Source: a virus. Taken from it: a stretch of 43,064 bases of DNA. Below, in pieces: positions 5,351 through 42,325 of the stretch. The stretch is from positions 1 through 43,064 of IMG/VR virus record IMGVR_UViG_3300005577_000053; one strand, given 5' to 3'. How positions within the stretch are numbered: position 1 is the stretch's first letter; every line of letters begins with the position of its first letter. The notes under the pieces are model-generated. The model ran no database searches. It was not told where the DNA came from and worked only from the letters and a program-made list of their open reading frames with translations. The translations under genes were made by a program, and so were the position numbers.

Positions 5351-5971
5351 ATGACAAGCATGCTCACTGACTCGGCCAACAAACGGGCCGCTGCCGAGAA
5401 GGCAGAAGAACTCAAGCAGCTGCGCCAAAAACGTCTGGCGCTGGTTGCCAAGCGCAATCACCGCTCGGACGAAGTGAAGATTGAAACGATTAAAACCTAC
5501 CTCGCCCTTGGCGGGAATTTAACCCTCACATCTGCCTCGACGGGCATTGCCTACACGACGTTGAAGGTGTGGAAGGCCAGTGCCTGGTGGAACACGGTGA
5601 TTACCGAGCTTCGAAAAGAAGAGAAACTCCTTCTCTCGACAAACACCAAGAAACTGATGAAAGTGGCTATGGAGGCTTTGGCGGATAGGGTGGAGAATGG
5701 CAACCACATATATGACCAGAAAAAGGGTAAGCTTATTCGCAAACCCTTGGAAGCGAAAGACCTCCATAAAATCTCTGTGGATTTAATCGACAGGGCACAG
5801 GTATTGGATAAGGCCACAGAAGAAACTGTGAATATCCAGAATGACGAAGACAAGCTTAGTAAACTCGCTGAACGATTTGCAGCCCTTGCATTAAAAGCTG
5901 CCGAGAGACAAGCAAATATTAATACAGGTGAAGTTGTAGATATTCAATCTAAGGAAATTACAGAGGAATGA
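5351..5971 (+). CDS. terS: terminase small subunit
   Basis: Protein of about 206 aa that directly precedes and overlaps (ATGA) the large terminase gene. Residues about 45-85 read as a helix-turn-helix: SDEVKIETIKTYLALGG, then TSASTGIAYTTLKVW, as in small terminase DNA-recognition domains; the remainder is helical and acidic at the C-terminus. It should bind packaging sites and hand DNA to TerL. Start choice is uncertain: GTG at 5321 extends it by ten residues but lacks a ribosome binding site, while ATG at 5351 has AAGGAA about 13 bases upstream and overlaps the stop of an 11-codon leader ORF starting at 5319. Confidence 0.8.
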   Translation: MTSMLTDSANKRAAAEKAEELKQLRQKRLALVAKRNHRSDEVKIETIKTYLALGGNLTLTSASTGIAYTTLKVWKASAWWNTVITELRKEEKLLLSTNTKKLMKVAMEALADRVENGNHIYDQKKGKLIRKPLEAKDLHKISVDLIDRAQVLDKATEETVNIQNDEDKLSKLAERFAALALKAAERQANINTGEVVDIQSKEITEE

Positions 5972-39943: not shown

Positions 39944-40058
39944 ATTCTATGATGTAATACTCTCTTGTTTCTTCTGGAAGTCTTTCCCAAGGAATTGCTC
40001 CTTGCCAGCCAAACGTAAGATTTGAAAACCACTCCCGTGGATTTTTAGGTGTACTCAT
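39864..40058 (-). CDS. small hypothetical protein, 64 aa
   Basis: ATG at 40058 overlaps the helicase stop (ATGA-type). MSTPKNPREWFSNLTFGWQG, AIPWERLPEETREYYIIEYD and a Gly/Pro-rich end. The 3' third overlaps the polymerase gene in another frame by 80 bp. No family recognised. Confidence 0.65.
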   Translation of the reverse strand: MSTPKNPREWFSNLTFGWQGAIPWERLPEETREYYIIEYDKRFVYGEPPGGGCGDSEVPPSEPL

Positions 40059-41302
40059 AAGTCTTTGTACCTGGCCGCCTCTTGATCCATCATCACTTCC
40101 CAGCGAGCATGTCGTCTCTTAGGGTCTGTGTCAGGATCGCCAAGAAGCTTGTTCTTAGAAATGTTTAGGAACCTAATCTGGGCATAAGCTTCATCATGCA
40201 CTTTACCAATCCCCAAGATGAAGTCTGCGGTGGCTTGTTTACTGGTCTTTGCATTTGCTACATTCCCCATGGTGAGCCATTTCATTCCCTCACCTGATCC
40301 ATCCGCTTGAGTCACCCCAATGATTGGACACTGCTTAGCAAGGGTGCGTAGCCATTCATAAATTTTACCCAGTCTGAGGTCCTCTCTGTCAGCATCAAAC
40401 CCCTGGACATGGTCAACCTGATCCACCACCACGACACAAGGTTTGTATTTCTCAATAAGCTTCTCAACATGAGTTTTGTTGAAGTTGCCCAGTCTAGGCA
40501 ATAGAATCTTTCCCTTAGTCTTCTCCATGAAGACCTGTTGTGCTCTTGCTCTATTACTAAGTATCTGTGCCAATGTAGCACCAAGCACTGACTGGTAGTA
40601 CCTCATGAGGATGTTGTCGTCCTCACCTTCGTTGTTGAGGTGCAGCACTGGGCCTAGGTTTTGAGCGACAGCTTGTTCTGCAAAGTAGCTGCCTTCGGAT
40701 GTTAGGAAAGTGGTTTTACCGGTCTCTGGGCGAGCGAACAAGAAGCCAAAGTTTCCTGGGCGCAAACTACCCAATGACTTGTTCAGGCTGTCCATGCGCC
40801 AGCGCAAGCCAGGCTTTAGATAAGTCTTGTCAAGTAGTTGCTCTAAATCTGGCTCCACAAACTCAAACTCATCTTGAGAAGCAACAGCGTTTCCACTGTC
40901 CCATTCCTCCAGAAGCTTGAGTTGCTCCTGTACCCCTGCCATGGCCCGGTTGTCGCCTTCTGAGGCGTTGTAGGCGGCCATGGAAAGCTCTTTGAGCAGC
41001 TGTCCCTTCTTCAGGGACACACAGAGCTGCTTAGCAGCGTCTTTGTCAACATCGAGAGTTTTCAAGTTCTCGAACAGCTGGATGTAGAACTCACGCTCAC
41101 TTGGTCGACTTGCGAAGAACAGGGTAGCAAGGGTGTCTACAGACATCGAGGTGTTAGCCTCGTCGTTGAAATACTCCTGGATACAGCGATAGATGCCTTG
41201 TAGTTCTTTGGGGAGGTCTTTCGCTTCCAAGATGGAACTCACAGTGGTGTAGCTCTCTCGCTCCAACGCAAGCAAGAGAACACCGAGTTCTGGAATTACA
41301 AT
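40055..41302 (-). CDS. DnaB-like replicative helicase, probable AUU start
   Basis: About 415 aa. N-terminal domain IPELGVLLLALERES..., then a RecA-like motor: Walker A LFARPETGKTTFLT (residues about 188-201), Walker B CVVVVDQVDHVQGFD, and GVTQADGSGEGMKWL near the DnaB H3 region. No ATG or GTG precedes the N-terminal domain; the first TTG (41275) would cut it by nine residues and has no ribosome binding site. ATT at 41302 has AGGAG exactly six bases upstream (41313-41309). A 10-bp hairpin lies just before that AGGAG and a near-consensus promoter about 110 bases further upstream. Confidence 0.9.
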   Translation of the reverse strand: MVIPELGVLLLALERESYTTVSSILEAKDLPKELQGIYRCIQEYFNDEANTSMSVDTLATLFFASRPSEREFYIQLFENLKTLDVDKDAAKQLCVSLKKGQLLKELSMAAYNASEGDNRAMAGVQEQLKLLEEWDSGNAVASQDEFEFVEPDLEQLLDKTYLKPGLRWRMDSLNKSLGSLRPGNFGFLFARPETGKTTFLTSEGSYFAEQAVAQNLGPVLHLNNEGEDDNILMRYYQSVLGATLAQILSNRARAQQVFMEKTKGKILLPRLGNFNKTHVEKLIEKYKPCVVVVDQVDHVQGFDADREDLRLGKIYEWLRTLAKQCPIIGVTQADGSGEGMKWLTMGNVANAKTSKQATADFILGIGKVHDEAYAQIRFLNISKNKLLGDPDTDPKRRHARWEVMMDQEAARYKDL

Positions 41303-41315
41303 GGTTTTCTCCTAT

Positions 41316-41339
41316 AGAGGTCTGTCTAAACAGACCTCT
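41316..41339 (-). promoter_or_regulatory. 10-bp hairpin next to the helicase ribosome binding site
   Basis: AGAGGTCTGT (41316-41325) pairs perfectly with ACAGACCTCT (41330-41339) around a 4-nt loop. In the leftward leader it is three bases upstream of AGGAG. It is not followed by a T-run, so it is more likely a translational or RNA-processing element than a terminator. Confidence 0.7.
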
Positions 41340-41410: not shown

Positions 41411-41439
41411 ATTGTACCAAGAAAGCAACAGCTTGTCAA
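41411..41439 (-). promoter_or_regulatory. near-consensus leftward promoter of the replication operon
   Basis: Minus strand: perfect -35 TTGACA (41439-41434), 17-bp spacer, -10 TACAAT (41416-41411). Preceded by AAAAAGC, the shared context of the other promoters. Predicted start near 41404 leaves a leader of about 100 nt before the helicase. Confidence 0.9.
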
Positions 41440-41454: not shown

Positions 41455-41592
41455 TTACGTTCCAGCAACAATCATTAGGTAGGCAATGTAGGCGAAAGGG
41501 CTGCAAAAAATGAGGAACACTGTAGCCTGTGCAAAACTCCACCCATCAGGCTCGTTGCGATGATACAAAAAATAGTCCAGAAATTTCTTCAT
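41455..41592 (-). CDS. small membrane protein, 45 aa
   Basis: ATG at 41592 with AAGGAA eight bases upstream, inside the primase 3' end. MKKFLDYFLYHRNEPDGWSF, then a hydrophobic hairpin-like stretch (FLIFCSPFAYIAYLMIVAG). It lies just upstream of the helicase promoter. No family recognised. Confidence 0.65.
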   Translation of the reverse strand: MKKFLDYFLYHRNEPDGWSFAQATVFLIFCSPFAYIAYLMIVAGT

Positions 41593-42325
41593 CTGTAAGT
41601 TCCTTGGGGTCTTGCTCGGTGATGACCACCCTTGCCTGCATCCCTAGCATCTTTGCTCTCTGGGCAATCTTCATAGCTTCCTTTGCCTTGTCGTGGTCTA
41701 GCCACACCACCAAGCTTCGATATAGCTTTGCCAAGCGTGTCAATTTGCTTGTAGGTAGGTTGGTACCTAACAGGGACATTGCATCGATTCTTCGCCCTTC
41801 TAGGGCTCCAGAATCTGCCAGGGTGATGGCACTGAGGCAGTCTTCTGTTAGGACCAGCTGCCTGGGTCCTTCCAGCGGTTGTACAGCCATTTGGTATATT
41901 GGGAGGAGACCTTCGTGTGGCCCGCTTGTGAAGTATTTCGATAGCTTCCTACCTCTCCAATCACTTTCGCTGAGATTCCGGGCTTGAAAGAACTGCTTGT
42001 CTCCTGTCCAGGGGAAGGTGAAGACAAGTTGATTTTTCGAGGGGCTGTAGCGCACACCTCTGGCAATAAGGGTTTCAATGGGCACATGATATTTTCCTAA
42101 CCAAGCAACAGCATCGCTGCCGAAATGAGTGGACAAATCATCGGGGAGAGGCTTAACGTCAGACACATCTTCTCTGTTGCGCTGAGCCTTTGCCACCAAT
42201 GGAGACATTGTGGGTCTGCTTTTGTCGTGACATGAGAAGCAGAAGCTCCCCCCGTCGTCATAGATCGCATTTGCATCACTACTCCCACAGTTTTCACATC
42301 GTATATGCCTCAAAAACCTAGCCAC
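41546..42325 (-). CDS. DNA primase, TOPRIM (T7 gp4 primase-like)
   Basis: 259 aa; GTG at 42325 directly after the previous stop. N-terminal zinc-binding domain IRCENCGSSDANAIYDDGGS with FCFSCHDK (C..C...C..C), then a TOPRIM domain with LVLTEDCLSAITLADSGAL (Glu) and SLVVWLDHDKAKEAMKIAQ (DxD). Makes RNA primers for the adjacent helicase; unlike T7 gp4, primase and helicase are separate genes here. The end overlaps the 45-aa membrane protein gene. Confidence 0.9.
   Translation of the reverse strand: MARFLRHIRCENCGSSDANAIYDDGGSFCFSCHDKSRPTMSPLVAKAQRNREDVSDVKPLPDDLSTHFGSDAVAWLGKYHVPIETLIARGVRYSPSKNQLVFTFPWTGDKQFFQARNLSESDWRGRKLSKYFTSGPHEGLLPIYQMAVQPLEGPRQLVLTEDCLSAITLADSGALEGRRIDAMSLLGTNLPTSKLTRLAKLYRSLVVWLDHDKAKEAMKIAQRAKMLGMQARVVITEQDPKELTDEEISGLFFVSSQRA

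Follow-up and report, generated by a model that had tools for sequence, protein, structure and literature searches.

The window, as we call the whole 43,064-nt stretch of viral DNA analysed here, is a contig of a tailed phage that encodes terminase, portal and head proteins, a split family-A polymerase and a ribonucleotide reductase. The subject of this work is a DnaB-like replicative helicase gene on its minus strand, which follows a separate primase gene and is preceded by a leader with its own promoter-like sequence (Table 1). Neither a megablast of 13 kb against phages nor a single-sequence scan of viral contigs found a near-identical genome; the helicase relatives described below came from alignment queries.

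Consistent with its assignment to phrog_19, the protein has a RecA-type ATPase core, a helical N-terminal domain and a Walker A motif of the GRPETGKTT type that is conserved in the family. Its nearest solved structures are bacterial DnaB proteins, both by profile and by fold (Foldseek top E 3.7e-20), and among Pfam families DnaB_C falls slightly below the cut-off and AAA_25 above it. The AlphaFold model (36 family members) has a mean pLDDT of 92.6, with residues 1–10 averaging 89, and the DnaB profile match runs from position 4.

Two further features of the region were recorded. A small ORF, MKKFLDYFLYHRNEPDGWSFAQATVFLIFCSPFAYIAYLMIVAGT, at 41455–41592 on the minus strand, overlaps the end of the primase gene and has no family match; its product is probably a membrane protein. 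A 25-nt inverted repeat, 92% complementary, has one arm in the helicase gene (41207–41231) and the other in the gene just before the terminase (5746–5770), and both arms encode LEAKDL(P/H)K in frame.

Table 1. Positions of the helicase gene, its neighbour and its leader elements in the window
Feature	Position	Strand	Remarks
DnaB-like replicative helicase; 415 codons from the AUU, stop not counted	40055–41302	−	phrog_19, E 4.6e-53
TTG, first canonical in-frame codon, rival start	41273–41275	−	9 codons after ATT; without SD
Putative AUU initiation codon of the helicase	41300–41302	−	6 nt past AGGAG; aligned with relatives' starts
Shine-Dalgarno (SD) AGGAG	41309–41313	−	Direct read; 6-nt spacer to ATT
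In-frame stop TAG	41312–41314	−	Direct read; bars any upstream start
10-bp hairpin AGAGGUCUGU-UUAG-ACAGACCUCU	41316–41339	−	2 nt upstream of SD; not conserved in relatives
Second predicted leader stem-loop	41343–41390	−	Folding
Sigma70-like promoter TTGACA-17-TACAAT	41411–41439	−	11/12 matches, TG before second hexamer; sigma70 consensus
Separate primase gene upstream, GTG start	41546–42325	−	phrog_47, E 2.8e-20

The helicase start site and its leader

Read directly, the minus strand runs ...CAGACCTCT AT AGGAG AAAACC ATT GTA ATT CCA GAA CTC..., and the ATT stands exactly six bases past AGGAG, as a preliminary description of this DNA had stated. The helicase frame, open between stops from 41311 to 40055, passes from the TAG through GAG AAA ACC to this ATT, and since the TAG overlaps the SD an in-frame start further upstream is impossible. 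The same description had found no ATG or GTG before the N-terminal domain; our reading agrees and adds that TTG is missing too until nine codons after the ATT. A second ATT (41296–41294) lies 12 nt from the SD. From the first ATT the predicted product begins (M)VIPELGVLLL, given here as (M)VIPELGVLLLALE; the start position proposed earlier thus stands, but the peptide proposed with it, 'IPELGV', begins at the second ATT and misses the first two residues. The site has the features of a start that IF3 would discriminate against, namely no ATG, GTG or TTG at the N-terminus, a near-cognate codon at SD spacing and an SD strong or long enough to compensate, of the kind described in PMC13009471.

The leader of the window phage folds at −34.3 kcal/mol (z −3.45). 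A strong hairpin three bases upstream had been reported and taken as a sign of layered control; the hairpin is present, ending two bases before AGGAG, but a regulatory role for it is unsupported beyond the window phage, folding across the group being not unusual (mean z −0.24). Conservation of the leader hairpin found no support, and an Rfam scan of the window returned no known RNA element. Upstream of the stem-loops lies the sigma70-like promoter, to which shuffles of the region yielded 0.7 comparable sites on average.

Start codons across the helicase family

Among cultured phages the closest relative is Alcaligenes phage vB_Af_QDWS535, whose helicase reads MILPELSIIKLL and has its ATG exactly opposite the window ATT; many relatives likewise have ATG there, and an alignment with related phages had been suggested earlier as a check on this very codon. 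From IMG/VR and GenBank we assembled 156 non-identical helicases whose 5' side is open. In the alignment, 117 of them show a canonical codon close to the N-terminus (ATG 77, TTG 24, GTG 16) and 39 show none. In 37 of these 39, a near-cognate codon occurs at an SD-compatible distance (ATA 16, ATT 14, ATC 4, CTG 3), and in 30 of the 37 it lies 6 or 7 nt from the SD. A second version of this comparison took the best SD and read the single in-frame codon 5–7 nt downstream, near-cognates not being sought. That codon was AUH or CUG in 33 of 37 genes, whereas the eight neighbouring codons gave 1–18 of 37 (about 24%); with rows treated as independent, p is about 5e-17 against the neighbour mean and 1e-10 against the richest upstream neighbour. 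An SD of at least 5 nt precedes 35/39 non-canonical as against 44/117 canonical helicases (Fisher 7e-9), a difference that gives a median p of 0.02 when independent pairs on the tree are compared. The non-canonical genes are not richer in AT, their G+C content being 42% compared with 40% for the canonical ones. A further copy of the helicase, with AUA, was seen in a bacterial MAG contig (L283).

Protein-level constraint sets in at the odd codon. Across 58 pairs of non-canonical genes, which overlap and for which the values are uncorrected, pN/pS is 0.50 in codons 2–7, 0.49 in codons 2–13 and 0.52 in codons 14–60, whereas the nine codons preceding the odd codon give 1.34. The surroundings of the two classes also differ. 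The median gap to the upstream gene is 78 nt for non-canonical and −4 nt for canonical helicases, and a near-consensus sigma70 promoter stands directly upstream of 29 of 38 non-canonical as against 42 of 115 canonical genes; this last association is strong when tested plainly, but under a control for relatedness it is not significant (median p 0.18), and we regard a link between promoter and non-canonical start as suggestive.

Two class-II glutamine amidotransferases from the same phage group offer what appears to be an independent sign of AUH initiation. Here ATT (G014:3678–4988) and ATC (G046:41201–42319) directly precede the catalytic Cys of a CGIVG or CGHVG motif, and eight homologues have ATG at that codon. 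In these Ntn hydrolases the catalytic Cys must become residue 1 once the initiator Met has been cleaved off, which requires the ATT or ATC before it to be the initiator.

Taken together, the QDWS535 alignment, the 37 genes with AUH or CUG, the step in constraint, the amidotransferase Cys and the predicted first helix of the helicase all argue strongly for the AUU as the start that had been proposed. At the level of sequence, comparison of the relatives indicates both initiation at this codon and its dependence on a strong SD.

Confinement of the odd starts and competing explanations

Unusual starts in these phages are largely a property of the helicase. Fourteen contigs, the window and 13 related ones mostly picked for their non-canonical helicase, hold 499 other long ORFs; 11 of these were flagged for a strong SD with AUH or CUG, and about half of the 11 look like chance. 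The helicase is almost the sole long gene there in which a strong SD and AUH or CUG replace a canonical start, and scanning the window alone for an SD plus a near-cognate codon gave only chance-like matches besides it. Under one common criterion, a canonical start is missing from 31/156 helicases, 4/115 primases and 8/147 polymerase fragments; a tighter start criterion is unusable for polA, given the lack of conservation at its N-terminus.

Individual cases were seen among the other replication genes. AUU, AUA or AUC behind a strong SD is credible in three primase genes (G003, G008, L184) and in the C-terminal piece of two split polymerases (L112, G037), and it is also seen in the corresponding piece of L117. 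In the window itself, the C-terminal piece of the split polymerase is interrupted in motif A (about 38505–38440, minus strand). The motif reads ATG CTT GTG TCC GTG GAC GCT AAG CAG CTT and then TAG, with seven extra bases, TAGACCC, between CAG CTT and GAA TGG AGG. A prfB-like +1 shift at CTT-TAG would give VDAKQL-RP-EWRTILELSRDP. The gene is uninterrupted in relatives L108, L112 and L117, and the window copy may be a broken gene, an assembly error or a programmed shift.

The main rival to a regulatory reading accepts the AUU as the start but gives it no purpose: a strong SD tolerates weak codons, and the codon drifts. Non-canonical starts do go with strong SDs, and on the helicase tree (FastTree, N-terminus left out) the state switches between canonical and non-canonical 23 times, at least 19 of them by well-supported branches. 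With so many flips, no single fixed requirement has been preserved, and weakened constraint offset by a strong SD would produce a partly similar picture. The weak point of drift is the concentration in one gene seen in the counts above: few of the 499 other long ORFs show such a start, though 127 of them, about a quarter, also have a canonical codon preceded by a strong SD. We consider drift possible but unlikely.

The remaining alternatives are far weaker. The phage or host might have altered initiation (its own IF3, an atypical initiator tRNA, or a host with loose start selection), making AUU ordinary for all genes, and AUH is indeed sometimes found in replication genes besides the helicase. 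However, no virus-encoded IF3 was found in 50 contigs, the only tRNA of the window is Leu-UAA, and the helicase loci carry no tRNA able to initiate, which makes a general decoding change unlikely; in these contigs the majority of genes give no hint of an AUH start. We judge this account very improbable.

Much the same holds for initiation at the downstream TTG with the frame above it untranslated. TTG is a legal start codon, but the one available has no SD, and the earlier view that it would truncate the protein and lacks a ribosome binding site is borne out. As codon 10, it would be expected to destroy a predicted helix at residues 6–11 (pLDDT 89–94), which lies inside the DnaB profile match, and codons 2–13 in the non-canonical genes change in the manner of coding sequence. 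Many relatives, moreover, lack a canonical codon for 20–160 codons. The open helicase frame of contig G020 runs for 164 codons before the first one, and that of G007 for 156, so that a canonical start would delete the whole N-terminal domain. A start at the TTG is hard to credit.

Had base 41300 been misread or misassembled, a single base change would suffice to hide an ATG, the codon found here in many relatives. However, 36 further independently assembled sequences lack a canonical start and have AUH or CUG at this place, AUA, AUC and CUG among them, and we give such an error very little weight. The finished GenBank phage record MW202697.1 (L004; about 1826–1949) likewise has no canonical helicase start, and its annotation begins the gene about 40 codons too far downstream, the real start being none of ATG, GTG and TTG. 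Least credible of all is a canonical out-of-frame start followed by a frameshift into the helicase frame: some leaders do hold an out-of-frame ATG or TTG (in the window a TTG-TAA that overlaps the AUU), but an out-of-frame canonical ORF crosses the start in only 7/37 non-canonical genes and not in the window, and no shared slippery site was seen.

Proposed role and relation to known systems

We place at roughly 0.7 the probability that the helicase is translated from the AUU, with an IF3-sensitive throttle as its likely role. IF3 rejects AUU (PMC5472188, PMC10158994) and represses near-cognate starts, and strong SDs go with AUU and AUA starts (PMC5472188, PMC13009471); in S. aureus such starts have extended SDs and reduced yield, and one responds to the medium (PMC13009471). 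In the helicase, the strong SD at optimal spacing would set the AUU in the ribosomal P site, where the initiator tRNA could pair with AU and mismatch at the third base. An mRNA strongly transcribed from the gene's own near-consensus, host-type promoter and equipped with a strong SD would then be limited to a low yield by a codon that IF3 rejects. On the assumption that a low dosage is needed, a dose-sensitive ring helicase would thus be kept scarce, and its yield may vary with the stringency of initiation. A translational throttle on the helicase is the most likely meaning of the odd start codon.

That replication onset would depend on IF3, as the preliminary description had it, is plausible, but the frequent reversion to ATG, GTG or TTG among relatives means that such dependence is no invariant requirement. 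A broader reading is that a lytic-type phage lineage gates replication onset on host initiation stringency. The helicase and some primase, split polymerase and amidotransferase genes would then use IF3-rejected starts behind strong SDs and be expressed only under a permissive IF3-to-ribosome balance or growth state. This we regard as distinctly doubtful.

The pattern looks like recurrent limiting of a replication gene and not like sequencing error. In this phage helicase family, an essential-looking replication gene has an odd start in roughly one member out of four, and the state has switched independently many times, which amounts to a natural comparative experiment on why genes take starts that the ribosome rejects. 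To our knowledge, few bacterial genes are known to start with a codon other than ATG, GTG or TTG, and the standard gene callers we know of ignore AUU-type starts. One consequence is that the helicase is mis-annotated in these phages, as in MW202697. The AUU, AUA, AUC and CUG leaders, together with matched ATG relatives, are material for reporters of IF3 control.

AUH starts are a known form of control, in infC, pcnB, sigR-like cases and cvfC1, ccpN and citZ; their recurrent use in a phage replicative helicase was not met in the literature searched, where we found no phage genes with AUU-type starts, most subscription journals lying outside the scope and absence elsewhere not being implied. The closest parallel is infC of E. 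coli and other bacteria, which like the helicase combines a strong SD with an IF3-rejected AUU or AUC (PMC5472188, PMC9410913). It is, however, a host gene whose product, IF3, closes a feedback loop; the product here is a DnaB-like helicase without a known link to IF3, so this is not autoregulation of the infC type. The E. coli pcnB gene, with its AUU start, is cited as an enzyme kept low by inefficient initiation (Binns and Masters 2002, cited in PMC13009471, PMC9410913), but it is one host gene, whereas the phage trait recurs across a virus gene family. In Streptomyces sigR the dosage is set by a non-canonical GTC start that IF3 represses, as a genetic test demonstrated (PMC5472188); the codon is a different one, and the gene is a host regulator in a translationally coupled pair. 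In cvfC1, ccpN and citZ of Staphylococcus aureus a conserved AUU or AUA serves as the start by means of an extended SD, at a lowered yield that for the AUA start of ccpN depends on the growth medium (PMC13009471). These are host metabolic or virulence-related genes whose starts were demonstrated by Ribo-Ret and reporters, whereas the phage starts are proposed from sequence comparison. Zobellviridae-like and related phages (MEP401, ICP2, CRP-1, HTVC033P) have split primase/helicase modules, with a homologous DnaB-like helicase beside a separate primase. In those modules, though, the helicase gene abuts the one before it or overlaps it, its start codon is ATG or GTG, and there is no separate promoter and leader.
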